This document shows, piece by piece, positions 25,862 through 33,524 of a DNA stretch of 33,524 nt (positions within the stretch are counted from its first letter, which is position 1; each line of letters begins with the position of its first letter). This DNA comes from Candidatus Zipacnadia bacterium. Lineage in GTDB: Bacteria > Armatimonadota > Zipacnadia > Zipacnadales > UBA5352. The DNA is taken from contig JALGSW010000038.1 in assembly GCA_029821635.1 (NCBI GenBank), forward strand, positions 1 to 33,524, written 5' to 3'. The notes beneath the pieces are model-generated. The model ran no database searches, was not told the DNA's origin, and saw only the letters and a list, made by a program, of their open reading frames with translations. The translations under genes and the position numbers were made by a program.

Positions 25862-27415
25862 ATGCGCTCGATGCACACCATGTGCTGGACGATTCCCGCG
25901 TTGCTGACGCTTGCGCTGCTGTGCGCGCTGCCCGCGAACGCGGCCGACTACGATTCAACGGTAACCGTCGCGTCCGACGAGCAGTTCGCGCTCGCGGAGG
26001 CGGAGACGATCGGCGGCTCGCTGGTGGTGACCGGCGGTGAGGCCACGGTCCTCGGGCGCGTCAAGGGCGACGCGATCGTCGTCGATGGCTCGCTGACGCT
26101 CGGCTCCACCGCGCGCCTCGATGGCTCACTACTGACGGTGCGCGGCGCTGTCAACCGCGACCCGCTCGCGCAGGTCGTCGGCGAGCAGCGCTCGCTGACC
26201 GCCGCGGAGTTCGCAAAGCTGATGGCGCGCGCCACGGCCGAGCCTGAGGCCGAGGTTCCCGCCGCTGAGGCCGCGGATGACGCCGACGAAGAGGCTGAGC
26301 AGGCCGCTGAGGAGGCTGAGCAGGCCGCTGAGGAGGCCGACGCCACCCACGAGGAGCATGAGGACCGCGCGGGCTTCGGCGAGACGATCACGATCCCGGC
26401 GGATGAGGTGCGCGTGGGCGACGTCGCGAGCTTCGGCGGCCCGATCATCATCGACGGTACGGTGCGCGGTGACGTCGCGAGCTTCGCGGGCTCTGTCACC
26501 GTGCGCGGGACGGTCGAGGGGGACATCGCGACCTTCGGCGGCACAGTGGACCTCGAGGACGGCAGCCGCGTGACGGGCGACATCGCCACCTTCGGCGCGC
26601 CTGTCAACACGGCGCCCGGCGCGGTGCACGAGGGCAAAGCCGCGGGCTTCGGCGAGGGCCTGTCGCGCTGGGCCTCATCGGCGAAGGAGCCCGTGGGCGG
26701 CGGCGGCTGGATCGTCGGCACAATCCTGGGCCTGCTGGTCGCACTGCTGATCGCGGCGGTCTTCCCGAACTCCACGCGCACGATCGCCGACGGCATCGTC
26801 GAGCAGCCCGGATCGGCCGCTGCGCACGGCGCGCTCACGCTGCTGCTGATCGCCCCGATCTGCGTCCTGCTGGCGATCACCTGCATCGGCCTGCTGCTCG
26901 TCCCGGTGGTGATCATCGGCACGATCGTCGCGGCCATCATGGGCACCGTCGGCATCAACCTGATCCTCGGGCGCGCGATCTCGGGGCGCCTGAACTGGTC
27001 GGTGGCCTCGTTGCTCGGCCTGGTGACGATCGGCGTCATCGCCCTGCAGATCGTGGAGCTGACTCGCTTCGTGCCGGACCTCGGCATCATCAACGTCCTT
27101 GTGACGCTCGCGGTCCTGCTCTTCGCGATCGGCGGCGCGCTGATGACCGGCTTCGGCACCACCCCCGACGGCACGTGGATCACGAGGCGCTTCAGTCGCC
27201 GGCGGCCGCCCGAGCCCGTCGAGGCCGCCCCTGGCGAGCCAACCGTGGACGTGCCCCCCCCCGGCGAGGAGCCGGAGGTCGCCGCTGAGCTTGCGGAGCC
27301 GCCTGCCGAGCCGATGGCCGAGCCACCCGCCGCGCCCCATCCGGGCCATTGGGCTCCGCCCCCCGAGCCCGAAGCGGACGAGCCGGGCTCTGACGAGCTC
27401 CCGCCCATCGACTGA
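25862..27415 (+). CDS. Secreted/membrane bactofilin-like (polymer-forming) protein
   Basis: Signal peptide; repeated ETIGGSLVVTGGEATVLGRVKGDAIVVDGSLTLGSTARLDGSL and GDVASFGGPIIIDGTVRGDVASFAGSVTVRGTVEGDIATFGGTVDL rungs; then TM helices and a Pro/Glu-rich tail. Confidence 0.8.
   Translation: MRSMHTMCWTIPALLTLALLCALPANAADYDSTVTVASDEQFALAEAETIGGSLVVTGGEATVLGRVKGDAIVVDGSLTLGSTARLDGSLLTVRGAVNRDPLAQVVGEQRSLTAAEFAKLMARATAEPEAEVPAAEAADDADEEAEQAAEEAEQAAEEADATHEEHEDRAGFGETITIPADEVRVGDVASFGGPIIIDGTVRGDVASFAGSVTVRGTVEGDIATFGGTVDLEDGSRVTGDIATFGAPVNTAPGAVHEGKAAGFGEGLSRWASSAKEPVGGGGWIVGTILGLLVALLIAAVFPNSTRTIADGIVEQPGSAAAHGALTLLLIAPICVLLAITCIGLLLVPVVIIGTIVAAIMGTVGINLILGRAISGRLNWSVASLLGLVTIGVIALQIVELTRFVPDLGIINVLVTLAVLLFAIGGALMTGFGTTPDGTWITRRFSRRRPPEPVEAAPGEPTVDVPPPGEEPEVAAELAEPPAEPMAEPPAAPHPGHWAPPPEPEADEPGSDELPPID
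26291..26332 (+). repeat. Perfect 21-bp tandem duplication (2 copies) encoding EAEQAAE
   Basis: GAGGCTGAGCAGGCCGCTGAG repeated exactly, followed by partial GAGGCCGA. Confidence 0.85.
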
Positions 27416-27429
27416 CGCGCGCGTTCGTG

Positions 27430-27481
27430 AGACGCGCCGTGGCGGCGCCGGCGACGAACCTGCCGGCGCCGCCGCGCGTCT
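27430..27481 (+). terminator. Very strong 20-bp hairpin after the ECF operon
   Basis: AGACGCGC-cgt-GGCGGCGCCGGC-GACGAACCT-GCCGGCGCCGCC-GCGCGTCT: 8 + 12 bp with one 3-nt bulge; no T-tract. Confidence 0.6.
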
Positions 27482-27575
27482 GTACGCAGGATTCGCGCGC
27501 TGCTGCCGCGAAAGGAGACGAACTCCGAGCCCGAGCACGGCCGGGCCGGCGCCTCATCCGCGGAGGAGAGAGCTC

Positions 27576-30500
27576 ATGCGTCTGACCGCCACGTTCATCG
27601 GCCTGCTGGTCCTCACGCCCATCTTCGCGTCCGCGGCCGGCGAGCTGCCGCAGTTCGACCCGGAAACGATGATGCGCTCGTCAGAGCTCGCGCGCGGCAT
27701 GACCGGCTACGGCCTGACCGTCTTCCAGGGCGCAGAGATCACGCGCTTCGACGTTGAGATCCTCGGCGTGCTGTCGAAGGCGAACCTTGGCGAGGACCTG
27801 GTCCTCATCGAGGTCACCTCCGGCCCGGTCGTCGAGCGCGAGTCGGGCATCATCGGCGGAATGAGCGGCAGCCCCGTCTACGTCGGCGGCAGGCTCATCG
27901 GCGCGATCGCCTACGGCTGGGGCTTCCTCCATGAGGCCATCGGCGGCGTCACGCCGATCGAGGCGATGCTCACGCCCTACGCAACGAAGCAGGCGCGCCT
28001 GCCCGACGACCATCCCGCCCGCGGCGTGATGCTGGATGGACGTTGGATTGAGGAGGCGCGTATCGCGGCCTCCGGCCCGGCCTTCGCCGATGACTCGACT
28101 ATCATGATGACCCCCGTCAGCCCGATCATCAGCGTGGCCGGGATGGAGGAGCAGGGGATGAAGCGGCTCGAGGCGATCTTCGGGCCGCACGGCCTGCAGA
28201 CCATGCCCGGCCCCGGCCGCCTCGACAATGGCATGGACGTGCAGCTCGAGCCGGGATCCGCCATCGGCGTGAAGCTCATGGACGGCGACTTCGACGTCTC
28301 CGCCATCGGCACCGTCACCTGGCGCAGCGGCGATCACGTGCTCGCATTCGGCCATCCGCTGATGGAGATCGGCCCGGTGAACATCCCCGTGACCACCGCC
28401 TGGGTGCTCGACTTCCTGCCCTCGATGCAGCGCTCCAACAAGCTCTCGTCGCCAATGAAGATCGTCGGCTCGCTGGTCAACGACGGTTCGTGGTCGATCG
28501 CCGCCGAGGTGGGCGGTGAGGCCCCGATGATCCCTGCCACCTTCACCGTCACCGACGAGGACAGCGGCCGCGCGAACACCTTCAACGTGCAGGTCGCCCG
28601 GCACGAGCTGCTCACCTCCGGGCTGCTCATGTCCGCGCTGGACTCGGCCCTTGCCGCGGGCGTCAACGTCGGTGGCGAGGGCATCGCCAGCCTCGACTTC
28701 AAGCTCGTGGGCGATGGCGGCACGGTCATCAGCCGGCACGACACGCTCTGGCACCCCGGGTCCCTCTACGTCGTCGGTTCCTGGGTCGATGAGGCGCTCT
28801 ACTACCTCACCGAGAATCGCTTCGACCCCCAGCAGCCTCAGTCGCTGAGCGTGTCGGTGAGCGTTCGCGATGAGGAGAAGCTGGCGGCCATCGAGCGCGT
28901 CTACACCGATCAGAGCGTCGCCCGGGCCGGTGAGGAGCTGACTGTCCACGTCGTCATGCGGCCCGACGGCGGCGAGCGTTTTGAGAAGACCGTGAGCTTC
29001 ACGATGCCCGAGGACCTGCCCAAGGGCACGCTGCGCGTCGGCGCGGCCGGGGGCGGCGACGAGTACTCCATCCGCAGCTACCTCCGCCTGCTGATGCCGC
29101 AGATCGACAGCCTCGAGGACATCGCGAAGGTCATCGAGACGATGAAGCGCTCCGACCAGCTCTACGTCGCCGTGGCCATTCCCGAGGTCGTCATCGGCTT
29201 CGAAGGTCAGGAACTGCCCGCCGCTCCCGCCAGCGCCGTCCGCATCTTCTCCGAGGACAATCGGAGCTACCTCACCGCCGGTTACACCGAGGTCAGCGGC
29301 ACCTTCGACAGCGACTACTACCTCTACGGCTGGGAGAGCCTCCGCCTGCCCACGGAGAACCAGCAGGGCGAACGCGGTAAGGTCAGGCCCAGCGACGAGT
29401 CCGATGACTACGAGGCCTCGACCACCGTCCGCGTGGGCGACCGCGCGCTGGAGAAGTTGTGGTGGGCCGCCTCCGCCATCGACGCGGACATCCGTCCATT
29501 GCAGGCCGAGGACCTGCCGGGCGCCGACCTCACGCCGGAGAAGCCCGTACTTGAGGGCGAGGCGGAAGACACCGAGGCAGTCGCGGACGATGAGGAGGAA
29601 GCCGCGGAGGACGAGAGCGAGGACGAGTCAGGCGACCACCCTGAGGCCGATGGCGAGGCGCTGGCCCGCGGCCTGCAGAGCCTCGCGCACAGCACCGGCG
29701 ATGAGTTCGAGGAGGGGAAGACCGAGGGCACGATGGTCCGCAGCGACGGCGCCGTAGTGCTCGCACCGCGCGCGCAGCTCATCGCGAAGCTCCCCGAGCC
29801 CTCCGCCTGGAGCATCGCCGCCGACGGCGACGGCGTCTGGATCGGCACCGCCAACCCCGGCCGCGTCTACCACTGGACCCCCGACTCCGAGGCGAAGGTC
29901 ATCTGCGACACCGGCTCGCTGATGGTGCTCTCGCTCCTGCCGATGGGCGATGGGACGGTCCTGGCCGGCACCGCGCCGGGTGGTCGCGTCCTTCAGATCG
30001 CCGCCGACGGCTCGATCGCGCGCGAGTGGGACCTGGACGCCGACTGGGTCTGGTCGCTCGAGCGCGACGGCGCCGGCCTGCTCGCAGGCACCGGCCCCGA
30101 CGGCGCCATCTACCGCCTCGGCGATGAGGCAACCTTCTTCACGCGCATCAGCCAGCCGCACGTCTTCGACCTGCTCTACACCGGCGAGGTGCTCTACGCC
30201 GCCGGTGGTGAAAACGAGGGCGGGGTCTTCGAGATCGGCCCGAGGGGCAGCATCCGCGACGTCTTCGGCGCCGATGAGGACTCCTGCACAGCCATCGCGC
30301 TTGCCGACGGCGGCCGGCTGATCGTCGCCACCGCCGAGGACGGGAAGATCTACGTGGTCGAGCCCAACGGCAGCCACGTCGAGGCGTACGAGGCCGATGA
30401 GAACGTGCTCGACGTGGCCTTCGCCGCCGGTCATGCCTGGGCCGCCACCACCGACGAGGGCAAGATCGTCGCGCTCGATGCCCGCAATAACACTGCGATC

Positions 30501-31565
30501 GCCCACCGGGACACCGCCAGCAATCAGTTCACGCGTATCTCAGCCGGCGAAGGCGCGGTCTACGCCGTCACCGCCAGCCCGACCCGCGTCTGGCGCCTGG
30601 ACACCGCCTCCATCACCGAGGGCACTTTCGTCTCCGAGCCGTTGGACGCCGAGCGCATGAGTCGCTGGGCTCGCATGAGCTGGGACGCGACCGTCCCCGA
30701 GGGCGCTGCGCTGGAGATCGACGCGCGCTCGGGTAACGGTGGGGTGCCCGCCGATCAGGCCTGGAGCGCCTGGACCGGCGAGCTGACCGAGTCGGGCGGG
30801 CGCATCAGCCCGCCGGACGCGCGCTACCTGCAGTACCGCCTGCGCATGGCGGGCCAACCTGCCGATGAACTCCAGGTCCGTCGCGTAGAAGTGTTGTACA
30901 TGACGCGCAACCAGAAGCCTACGCTGGAGCTCGACGACCCGGACCCCGGTGAAGCCATCCGCGCCGAATACGAACTCTCCTGGACCGCCGACGACGACGA
31001 TGACGACACGCTGCTGACGACGATCTTCCATCGCGCCGAGGGCTCGGACGAGTGGGTCGAGATCACCACGCTTGAGGACGAGGACAGCTTCGACTGGGAC
31101 ACAACCGAGATCGACGGCGGGCTCTACGACCTGCGCTTCGTCACCAGCGACGAGCCGAGCAACCCGACCGGCGCCCTGAGCGAGGAGCTGGTGGTCGAGG
31201 GCATCCTCGTGGACAACGGCTACCCGAAGCTGATCCTCGTGAGCAAGCCGCGGATCGGCCATGCGGACAGAACGCTCTCGGGCATGGCCATCGACGAACT
31301 GACCCGCATCACCTCGATCGACTGGACCTTCGCCGCGAAGGAGCTCTGGCGCACGGCGCTGCCCGATGACGGCCTGCTGGACTCGCGGCGCGAGCTGTTC
31401 CGCGTTGACCTGCCGGAACTCCCGGAGGACGAGACGTCGGTGCGGATCCGCATCCGCGACGCCGCGGGGAACGTGACCGTCGAGACGATCCCGCTGATCG
31501 AGCAGCCGCAGGAGGAGGACGCCGACACCGGCCCGCTGCAGGCCGAGGCGGGCGCGCGGGGCTGA
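27576..31565 (+). CDS. Large secreted SpoIVB-type (S55) peptidase-domain protein with acidic linker, propeller-like region and C-terminal domain
   Basis: ATG 27576 with SD GGAGGAG; signal peptide MRLTATFIGLLVLTPIFASAAG; S55-like SGIIGGMSGSPVYVGGRLIGAIAYGW and HVLAFGHPLMEIG; acidic EGEAEDTEAVADDEEEAAEDESEDESGD linker; repeated G.V.A.T..G-type propeller blades. Confidence 0.8.
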   Translation: MRLTATFIGLLVLTPIFASAAGELPQFDPETMMRSSELARGMTGYGLTVFQGAEITRFDVEILGVLSKANLGEDLVLIEVTSGPVVERESGIIGGMSGSPVYVGGRLIGAIAYGWGFLHEAIGGVTPIEAMLTPYATKQARLPDDHPARGVMLDGRWIEEARIAASGPAFADDSTIMMTPVSPIISVAGMEEQGMKRLEAIFGPHGLQTMPGPGRLDNGMDVQLEPGSAIGVKLMDGDFDVSAIGTVTWRSGDHVLAFGHPLMEIGPVNIPVTTAWVLDFLPSMQRSNKLSSPMKIVGSLVNDGSWSIAAEVGGEAPMIPATFTVTDEDSGRANTFNVQVARHELLTSGLLMSALDSALAAGVNVGGEGIASLDFKLVGDGGTVISRHDTLWHPGSLYVVGSWVDEALYYLTENRFDPQQPQSLSVSVSVRDEEKLAAIERVYTDQSVARAGEELTVHVVMRPDGGERFEKTVSFTMPEDLPKGTLRVGAAGGGDEYSIRSYLRLLMPQIDSLEDIAKVIETMKRSDQLYVAVAIPEVVIGFEGQELPAAPASAVRIFSEDNRSYLTAGYTEVSGTFDSDYYLYGWESLRLPTENQQGERGKVRPSDESDDYEASTTVRVGDRALEKLWWAASAIDADIRPLQAEDLPGADLTPEKPVLEGEAEDTEAVADDEEEAAEDESEDESGDHPEADGEALARGLQSLAHSTGDEFEEGKTEGTMVRSDGAVVLAPRAQLIAKLPEPSAWSIAADGDGVWIGTANPGRVYHWTPDSEAKVICDTGSLMVLSLLPMGDGTVLAGTAPGGRVLQIAADGSIAREWDLDADWVWSLERDGAGLLAGTGPDGAIYRLGDEATFFTRISQPHVFDLLYTGEVLYAAGGENEGGVFEIGPRGSIRDVFGADEDSCTAIALADGGRLIVATAEDGKIYVVEPNGSHVEAYEADENVLDVAFAAGHAWAATTDEGKIVALDARNNTAIAHRDTASNQFTRISAGEGAVYAVTASPTRVWRLDTASITEGTFVSEPLDAERMSRWARMSWDATVPEGAALEIDARSGNGGVPADQAWSAWTGELTESGGRISPPDARYLQYRLRMAGQPADELQVRRVEVLYMTRNQKPTLELDDPDPGEAIRAEYELSWTADDDDDDTLLTTIFHRAEGSDEWVEITTLEDEDSFDWDTTEIDGGLYDLRFVTSDEPSNPTGALSEELVVEGILVDNGYPKLILVSKPRIGHADRTLSGMAIDELTRITSIDWTFAAKELWRTALPDDGLLDSRRELFRVDLPELPEDETSVRIRIRDAAGNVTVETIPLIEQPQEEDADTGPLQAEAGARG

Positions 31566-31649: not shown

Positions 31650-32372
31650 ATGCCGAAGCAACTCCGCCCGCGCACCTTCCGCCGTGTGGACGAGCTGCTG
31701 CTGGAGAGCTACGGCCCGGTGCCGGACCACTCCGAGGGTCCGCTGAACTCGCTCATCCGCACGATCCTCTCGCAGAACACCACCGACGCAAGCTCCTTCC
31801 CGGCCTTCGAACGCCTGCGCGACCACTTCGGCGGCGACTGGGAGCTGGCGCTGGAGGCGGACCCGGACGCGTACGTGCCGCTGATCCAGGACGCGGGCCT
31901 CGCGCCGACGAAGAGTAAGCGCATCCACACGATCCTCCGCCAGCTCAAGGACGCGCGCGGCGAACTCTCGCTCGATCACGTCTGCGCGATGGATCAGGAC
32001 CGCGCCAACGACTACCTGCTGAGCTTCAAGGGCGTTGGCCCGAAGACGGCATCGATCGTGCTGCTGTTCGAGTGCGGGATGCCCTTCTTCCCGGTGGACA
32101 CACACATCCACCGCGTGACGCGGCGCCTTGGCTGGGTGGCGGAGAAGGCGACGGCGGAGCAGGCGCACGAGGTGCTGACGGATGCGATCCCGCCGGAGCT
32201 GCAGTACCGGCTGCACCTGAACCTGGTGACGCACGGCCGGCGAGCCTGCCACCCCACCCGCCCGGAGTGCCACGCCTGCCCCATCTCGCGCTTCTGCGCC
32301 GCGTACAGGGGCGGGACGGTGGAGGCGAAGAGTACACAGGACTTGCTTGACTTCTCGCCTCGAGGGAGGTAG
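31650..32372 (+). CDS. nth: Endonuclease III-family DNA glycosylase
   Basis: HhH LLSFKGVGPKTASIVLLFECGMPFFPVDTHIHRVTRRLG; Fe-S cluster C-x6-C-x2-C-x5-C (CHPTRPECHACPISRFC); SD GGGAGG 7 nt before ATG 31650. Confidence 0.9.
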   Translation: MPKQLRPRTFRRVDELLLESYGPVPDHSEGPLNSLIRTILSQNTTDASSFPAFERLRDHFGGDWELALEADPDAYVPLIQDAGLAPTKSKRIHTILRQLKDARGELSLDHVCAMDQDRANDYLLSFKGVGPKTASIVLLFECGMPFFPVDTHIHRVTRRLGWVAEKATAEQAHEVLTDAIPPELQYRLHLNLVTHGRRACHPTRPECHACPISRFCAAYRGGTVEAKSTQDLLDFSPRGR

Positions 32373-32375
32373 ACT
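32347..32375 (+). promoter_or_regulatory. Sigma70-type promoter overlapping the 3' end of nth
   Basis: TTGACT-N17-TAGACT upstream of the AbrB-type antitoxin gene. Confidence 0.55.
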
Positions 32376-32415
32376 TCTTTCGGATAATCAGATTATGCGA
32401 ATAGTGGAGACTCCG

Positions 32416-32706
32416 ATGGCGATTGTCAAGGTGCGTGACAGAGCCCAGATAACGCTGCCCGCTGACATAAGGGACGAGTTGGGGATCGAGGAGGGAGACT
32501 TCCTCGAAGCAGTAGTCGAGGACCGGCGCGTTGTCCTCGTGCCGCAGAAGCTTGTTCCGAAGTTCGAGGAAGTCGAGCTTTCCGACGAGGGGGAGCGGAT
32601 GCTCGACGAGGCGGAGGCGGACGTCGCCGCCGGTCGGGTGCGCGAGTATGCGGGCGTTGAGGACCTCATAGCTGACCTGCACAACAATGCGACTGCTGGC
32701 GACTGA
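32416..32706 (+). CDS. AbrB/MazE/SpoVT-type antitoxin
   Basis: MAIVKVRDRAQITLPADIRDELGIEEGDFLEAVVEDRRVVLVPQKL; SD GGAGA before ATG 32416 (ATG 32395 also possible). Confidence 0.85.
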   Translation: MAIVKVRDRAQITLPADIRDELGIEEGDFLEAVVEDRRVVLVPQKLVPKFEEVELSDEGERMLDEAEADVAAGRVREYAGVEDLIADLHNNATAGD

Positions 32707-32944
32707 TCGCTTCCTGCGGGACTACGCGGACCTCCCCCACGATATCCGCGAGCGCGTGGACCGCAAGCTGCGGTACCTCGCGTCCGACCTGTCCCATCCC
32801 TCTCTGCGCGTGAAGCGTGTGCGCGGTCGTGACCGGGTGTATGAGGGCAGCGTGAACATGGATTATCGCTTCCTCTTCCGCATCGACGAGGATGTCTGCG
32901 TGCTTGAGAGGATCGGGCACCACAGCATCCTTGACAAGCGTTGA
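32687..32944 (+). CDS. RelE/YafQ-like toxin
   Basis: MRLLATDRFLRDYADLPHDIRERVDRKLRYLASDLSHPSLRVKRVRGRDRVYEGSVNMDYRFLFRIDEDVCVLERIGHHSIL; overlaps the antitoxin by 20 nt. Confidence 0.82.
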   Translation: MRLLATDRFLRDYADLPHDIRERVDRKLRYLASDLSHPSLRVKRVRGRDRVYEGSVNMDYRFLFRIDEDVCVLERIGHHSILDKR

Positions 32945-33015: not shown

Positions 33016-33045
33016 TTGACTCCCCTCCCCACTTTCTGCTATTGT
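33016..33045 (+). promoter_or_regulatory. Sigma70-type promoter of the trp leader
   Basis: TTGACT-N18-TATTGT; predicted start of transcription near 33052, 7 nt before the leader ORF ATG. Confidence 0.65.
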
Positions 33046-33058
33046 CTACCACACTACC

Positions 33059-33130
33059 ATGATTACTGACTGTTGCAGCCATTCGGTCGTTACACTCTGG
33101 GCTTGGCGCTGGCGACTGCGAGTCGCTTAG
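33059..33130 (+). CDS. trpL: trp operon leader peptide (23 aa)
   Basis: ATG ATT ACT GAC TGT TGC AGC CAT TCG GTC GTT ACA CTC TGG GCT TGG CGC TGG CGA CTG CGA GTC GCT TAG = MITDCCSHSVVTLWAWRWRLRVA; three Trp codons in WAWRW; lies between promoter and attenuator upstream of trpE. Confidence 0.85.
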   Translation: MITDCCSHSVVTLWAWRWRLRVA

Positions 33131-33133
33131 CGT

Positions 33134-33317
33134 CTGGTTCGCGCTGCAACAAAGATCGGAAAGAACCAGGCCGCGGGTGGCTCGCATTACCCCTCGCGGC
33201 TTGATCGGTGTACCAGGAGGCCACATCCGGCGCCTCCTCCATAGCGCAAAGACCCATCCGGCGCACTCCCCCCGCAGGCCGCGGGCTTCATCCAACTGAA
33301 GCCGCCGCGGCCTTTTT
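33134..33317 (+). promoter_or_regulatory. Candidate trp transcription attenuator (mutually exclusive hairpins)
   Basis: CTGGTTC (33134-33140):GAACCAG (33163-33169); GCCGCGGGT (33170-33178):ACCCctCGCGGC (33189-33200); 33193-33202:33276-33285 (10 bp incl. 2 G-U); terminator 33276-33313. Confidence 0.75.
33276..33317 (+). terminator. Intrinsic terminator within the trp leader
   Basis: AGGCCGCGGGCTTCA-TCCAAC-TGAAGCC(gc)CGCGGCCT followed by TTTTT (33313-33317); 15-bp stem with one 2-nt bulge. Confidence 0.85.
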
Positions 33318-33438: not shown

Positions 33439-33524
33439 ATGTACACGCCGACGCTCTACGAGTTCGTGAAGAAAGCCGACGAGGGGAACCTCATCCCCGT
33501 CTACCGCGAGTTCGTCGCCGACAC
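33439..33524 (+). CDS. trpE: Anthranilate synthase component I, N-terminus (3' truncated by window)
   Basis: MYTPTLYEFVKKADEGNLIPVYREFVADT matches the conserved TrpE N-terminus; SD GGAGG 8 nt upstream. Confidence 0.85.
   Translation, partial: MYTPTLYEFVKKADEGNLIPVYREFVAD

Follow-up and report, generated by a model that had tools for sequence, protein, structure and literature searches.

The window analyzed here, which is the whole stretch of DNA (33,524 nucleotides), ends within the first codons of trpE, and the region that precedes this gene contains a short Trp-rich reading frame, followed by a chain of complementary segments. This raises the question of whether the translation of the leader could control the transcription of the trp genes, and what the chain of segments might contribute to this control. 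The most probable answer, given a probability of about 75% on the basis of sequence comparison and structural modeling, is that the trp operon is governed by a ribosome-mediated attenuator that includes a relay, with the first of two tandem terminators having decayed into the relay hairpin. The source genome is a metagenome-assembled genome (MAG) of 5 Mb in 247 contigs (Armatimonadota, class Zipacnadia), and this reading would extend trp attenuation to this mostly uncultured phylum.

The locus and its leader peptide

The elements at the start of the transcription unit are as follows.

33016..33045, + strand: sigma-70-like promoter, with the -35 box TTGACT at 33016-33021, an 18-nt spacer, and an extended -10 box (TG-C-TATTGT) at 33040-33045
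33059..33130, + strand: trpL leader peptide ORF, MITDCCSHSVVTLWAWRWRLRVA, 23 aa, with the stop codon at 33128-33130; the ATG lies 13 nt after the -10 box, with no Shine-Dalgarno
33098..33112, + strand: regulatory Trp codons (TGG) at 33098, 33104, and 33110, read from the sequence
33439..33524, + strand: 5' end of trpE (anthranilate synthase component I), with the ATG at 33439; the gene leaves the contig after 86 bases

The trpE fragment is 96% identical, over 28 aa, to a query derived from the TrpE of the sister genomes. In one of these genomes (G002, locus L179), the ORFs indicate that trpE is the first gene of a trpEGDCBA operon, in which the genes downstream of trpE were named by reading the ORF translations. 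The leader ORF, located ahead of trpE, has three Trp codons in five, and its WAWRW peptide is retained in the family, with a leader peptide of the W-x-W type in all nine of the family genomes that have sequence upstream of trpE, while the promoter arrangement ahead of the ORF is repeated in nearly all the relatives. In most of the leaders, the ATG is found 7-14 nt past the -10 box, with no Shine-Dalgarno, and these two features suggest, at the level of the sequence, that the translation of trpL is near-leaderless. Leader peptides rich in W were also found in many other families.

This recurrence bears on the simplest objection, which is that there is no regulatory leader at all, only a short Trp-rich ORF that arose by chance ahead of an ordinary upstream terminator. 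The sequence does derive from a MAG, but every genome of the family has the Trp-rich peptide and the same order of hairpins, as do many families across the phylum, with a promoter preceding these leaders and trpE following them, which makes a chance origin barely credible.

Some other features of these loci were observed. Overlapping genes for a MazE-like antitoxin and a ParE-like toxin (32347-32944) were recognized by Pfam just 5' of the trp leader, and a SpoIVB peptidase S55 domain is encoded in a 1424-aa ORF at 27291-31565. The trpE that is cut off at the end of the window may continue in a trpE-like C-terminal fragment, which is located at the end of a contig (L002, G000:C137). The leader peptides of the families f26, f40, and f41 (L137, L138, L149, and L156) have a common WxWRxSNxSG-like motif, whose codons hold a hairpin, CTCCAAT..AAGTGGAG, within the ORF.

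Segments and alternative helices

The first-pass annotation had described a cascade of five segments downstream from trpL. All of its strings and pairings were located, and the chain was largely supported, but it omitted the arm formed by the Trp codons, and the full layout runs from A to F, with segments B to F corresponding to the original 1 to 5.

33099..33117, + strand: segment A, the Trp-codon arm, which pairs with 33121-33140 (A:B) in the MFE fold
33118..33140, + strand: segment B (segment 1 extended), comprising the last leader codons, the stop, and CTGGTTC; pairs with C
33163..33185, + strand: segment C (segment 2 extended), with 33167-33177 as the 5' arm of hairpin C:D
33193..33203, + strand: segment D (segment 3), the 3' arm of hairpin C:D, with no U-tract in the window
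33209..33213, + strand: TGTAC, invariant in the alignment of ten family genomes
33215..33238, + strand: extra hairpin AGGAGGC...GCCTCCT between segments D and E, variable among the relatives
33275..33290, + strand: segment E (segment 4), with 33275-33285 pairing with D, and 33276-33290 as the 5' arm of the terminator
33297..33317, + strand: segment F (segment 5), with the 3' arm of the terminator at 33297-33313 and the U-tract at 33313-33317

The core of A:B has a probability of 0.97-0.99 without a ribosome, and the best structure predicted for the untranslated RNA includes this helix. The B:C helix had been presented as 7 bp between CTGGTTC (33134-33140) and GAACCAG (33163-33169), which do pair, although the helix in fact has approximately 22 pairs (33118-33140 with 33163-33185), with single bulges. 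In C:D, GCCGCGGGT (33170-33178) pairs with 33189-33200, exactly as claimed, while the 10 bp of D:E (33193-33202 with 33276-33285, including two G-U) are extended to 11 by an additional G-C pair (33203:33275). The D:E duplex was better than that formed with a shuffled segment E in 500/500 cases in the window, and in at least 498/500 in each of the ten family genomes.

Segments E and F form the terminator hairpin that had been proposed (-26.7 kcal/mol, z=-4.7). This hairpin (33276-33313) runs into TTTTT (33313-33317), and none of 200 shuffles reached its folding energy; the leader as a whole folds with z=-2.5. In the case of direct pairing between C and F in the window, the 8-bp register that was tried does not pair, though C:F duplexes score well. 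The Rfam covariance models (including trp leader, T-box, and riboswitches), at the gathering score, recovered only a tRNA in the window, and ten related loci compared with Rfam returned neither a match nor a second RNA element.

One other candidate helix was considered.

33071..33079, + strand: possible outer helix of the untranslated RNA, TGTTGCAGC, a perfect 9-bp complement to GCTGCAACA at 33143-33151

It has a probability of 0.92-0.95 without a ribosome, and is compensated in some relatives, but was dropped, given that its duplex energy, for the majority of the family, does not exceed that of shuffled sequences (p 0.007-0.55).

Ribosome-dependent folding and the proposed switch

The effect of the position of the ribosome was modeled by partition-function folding, in which the 5' part of the RNA was masked as far as 12 nt past the A-site codon's first base, on the assumption of a standard ribosome footprint. 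With segment E out, a ribosome stalled at the first or second Trp codon gives B:C a probability of 1.0, C:D 0.0, and D:E 0.96 or 0.94, respectively, with D:E at 0.8 for the third codon. With the ribosome at the stop codon, C:D rises to 0.99 and D:E falls to 0.0, while A:B (0.97) and C:D (0.96) form when no ribosome is present. The masked folding of the window thus reproduces both arms of the switch that had been envisaged, with a ribosome at the stop hiding B and leading to C:D and the terminator, and a ribosome stalled at the Trp codons leading to B:C and D:E. The switch was kept in only 1 of 100 shuffles of segment B, and shuffling segment E destroyed D:E.

Whether D:E can compete once B:C has formed had been raised as a point to be checked, and the answer depends on the stage of transcription. 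It does so (0.94-0.96) until segment F emerges, after which E:F wins at equilibrium, in every ribosome state of the full-length RNA, with a probability of 0.83-0.93 even if the ribosome is stalled. The same treatment of the E. coli attenuators also has the terminator winning in the stalled state (trp 0.93-0.95; his 0.97). Given that the terminator wins at equilibrium in all states, the switch would have to be kinetic, as is usual for attenuators.

Seven of the ten family genomes (the window, G001, G002, G006, G007, G008, and G009) clearly show the domino of pairings, and G005 shows it in part, whereas in G003 and G004, masked folding revealed no switch at the stop state, where D:E is kept. Outside the family, the domino is clear in the f4 genomes G012 and G032, but no switch was found by masked folding in the f3 genomes G021 and G029. 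These comparisons are based on counts of specific helix pairs, since an index of the upstream pairing of segment E was too noisy for the second terminator, due to the other partners of this segment.

The locus thus has a Trp-rich ORF before trpE, an intrinsic terminator, and a predicted ribosome-dependent alternative structure, as in the classical amino acid attenuators. In the proposed mechanism, transcription would begin just upstream of the trpL ATG. When Trp-tRNA is plentiful, the ribosome would reach the stop codon and cover B (to approximately 33140), allowing C:D to form, which would leave E free for the E:F hairpin and its U-tract to terminate transcription ahead of trpE. When Trp-tRNA is scarce, the ribosome would stall at the Trp codons, B:C would form, and the released D would pair with E before F is synthesized, with the RNA polymerase reading through. 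Without translation, A:B, C:D, and E:F would all form (superattenuation).

Conservation and covariation

The leader peptide and the helices B:C, C:D, D:E, and E:F are retained in all ten family genomes, with 94-98% standard pairs, and 2-3 pairs per helix changed on both sides. In B:C, standard pairs account for 96.8% of the cells over 22 positions in the ten genomes; 13 further pair types occur, and both sides have changed at two positions, for example from A-U to G-U to G-C. The compensatory changes expected among homologs do, then, occur, though on a modest scale within the family, where the conservation of the pairs is barely above that of row permutations (29-112 of 2000 permutations match, that is, the 1.5-5.6% level, approximately).

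A broader comparison was based on nine families with tandem hairpins, for which the positive controls C:D and E:F behaved as expected. The D:E duplex averages -19.0 kcal/mol within families and -14.5 kcal/mol between them (permutation p=1e-4), with the same tendency in eight of the nine families; an earlier cross-family swap with only three families had failed to discriminate D:E, and was repeated with the nine. The complementarity of C and F likewise tracks the family (p=2.5e-4), nearly as well as D:E, because C resembles E. The selection of D:E as an antiterminator is therefore likely, rather than assured, on the evidence of these alignments, and D:E may be, in part, a by-product of the similarity of the hairpins.

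Taken to its limit, this similarity provides an alternative explanation, in which the element is a plain attenuator of four segments with a leftover hairpin, regulated by the choice between B:C and C:D, while D:E merely reflects the sequence shared by the hairpins (C with E, and D with F). It would account for the family signal of C:F (which exceeds D:E in most of the f1 genomes tested, and on average in f1), for the missing D:E switch in the two f3 genomes, and for G008, which has a U-tract after the first hairpin, and where D followed the change in C, with the loss of one D:E pair. However, D:E outscores C:F in f3, f4, and f41, and in G006 and G009, segment C changed to A opposite the C of segment D, which improved B:C and worsened C:D, while D still matches E; the changes in G006/G009 and in G008 are single events. 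In the window, moreover, C:D has no U-tract, so a choice between B:C and C:D would control nothing without a relay. The plain attenuator is thus regarded as unlikely.

The TGTAC (33209-33213) follows segment D at an almost constant spacing in all ten family genomes, in otherwise variable surroundings, and is perhaps a polymerase pause site. It could also be argued that the pausing of the RNA polymerase, or a factor acting at this invariant site behind hairpin C:D, brings about antitermination in the stalled state, instead of D:E. The f3 and f4 leaders examined also have the tandem layout, but with no TGTAC at the corresponding place, which renders this explanation very improbable in comparison with the relay attenuator. 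The alignment also shows a poor terminal U-tract in G006, G009, and G007, so that termination may need help in these genomes.

Tandem terminators and the probable origin of the relay

In two basal genomes of the family (G004 and G008), the C:D hairpin is followed by CUUUU or UUUUU, and is thus a terminator by pattern, in tandem with E:F. The same tandem-terminator layout is present in f4 and f3, whereas f5, f6, f7, f9, and f10 have a single terminator. Tandem hairpins with matching 5' arms are found within the class in f8, and outside it in f26, f33, f36, f40, and f41, although, having been detected by simple rules and by eye, these are examples rather than counts. The window is not tandem by pattern, given that its first hairpin ends in CGGCUUG, followed by AUCGG, with no U-tract.

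In the TrpE tree, the genomes that have no first U-tract form a single clade (98/95), nested inside the tandem-terminator genomes; G008 and G004 diverge before this relay clade, with the tandem f4 genomes as sister. The trpE fragment of the window is too short to be placed, but the three other members of its genus (g1) are in the relay clade. Given this grouping, a single loss of the first U-tract, in the clade of the window, is most likely. The C:D hairpin was probably once the first terminator, and would now work only as a relay in this clade. The relay is the simplest reason for the retention of a hairpin without the U-tract that it would need to terminate transcription.

There is perhaps an even chance that the more general version of this scenario is correct, that is, that the Armatimonadota evolved a tandem-terminator trp attenuator, with D:E pairing enabling a single stalled ribosome to disarm both terminators, and that the clade of the window shows the origin of the six-segment form of the his type, with terminator 1 persisting as a relay after losing its U-tract. 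If the relay is real, it would suggest how multi-hairpin attenuators such as his arise, with the intermediates still alive, and would represent a compact design in which a single ribosome controls two terminators.

Comparison with known attenuators

The addition of segment A produces six segments, A-F, with a topology like that found in his attenuation, of which the B:C pairing is also a part. All five helices (A:B, C:D, and E:F versus B:C and D:E) are present in the window, and are predicted to be mutually exclusive, as the his type requires. As predicted for the window, the his attenuator of E. coli and Salmonella has the regulatory codons of its leader peptide in A, with B:C and D:E antiterminating, and A:B, C:D, and E:F terminating. 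Its AB, CD, and EF pairings, with DE as the alternative, are described in PMC10989985. The window differs in its Trp codons and trp genes, in a C:D hairpin that resembles a decayed terminator, with the U-tract still present in relatives, and in the near copies C/E and D/F, as well as in a B:C helix of approximately 22 bp that overlaps the stop codon, and an apparently near-leaderless ORF.

The E. coli trp attenuator also carries its Trp codons in the arm of the first hairpin, precedes trpE, and has a terminator that wins at equilibrium, but it has four segments rather than six, with the one extra hairpin of the window shifting the parity. The trp attenuators of the Actinobacteria (Corynebacterium and Streptomyces) have Trp leader peptides and a GGCC-type multi-use motif common to the antiterminator and the terminator, both of which are likenesses to the element of the window, whereas neither a second terminator nor a relay is mentioned for them in the passages covered here (PMC1262725). 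In the trpL of Sinorhizobium meliloti, too, the leader ORF lies at the 5' end of the transcript or close to it (PMC7298713), although that RNA begins with the ATG itself, whereas the 5' UTR of the window is predicted to be approximately 6 nt. The three-hairpin model of Corynebacterium glutamicum ilvBNC similarly includes terminator, antiterminator, and anti-antiterminator hairpins (PMC11857589), but refers to a different operon, with one terminator.

While the principle of attenuation is textbook knowledge, the tandem variant, the phylum, and the evolutionary series appear to be new, as far as was checked. No paper was found that brings together attenuators or leader peptides and the Armatimonadota (or Armatimonadetes), nor any report of tandem terminators under one leader peptide, in a literature limited to open-licence papers, which makes this absence weak evidence.

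A number of the related loci have peculiarities of their own. At four f3 (and f2-like) loci (L020, L023, L027, and L038), a second element lies between the terminators and trpE, composed of the motif GCCAGCCG...GGAGAG...GGCGACGGAGGTCGCC, with no Rfam match, and a small ORF whose Shine-Dalgarno (GGAGGTGATAACATGGCC) is strong. In L030 (G040), the tandem terminators seem to have collapsed through a deletion reaching from the first 5' arm as far as the second U-tract, which may be biological or an assembly artefact. A second trpE contig in an f4-assigned genome (L176, G032:C284) has a leader of the f3 type (MKSDTPGRVWFSWWYWFT), which points to either contamination or transfer.
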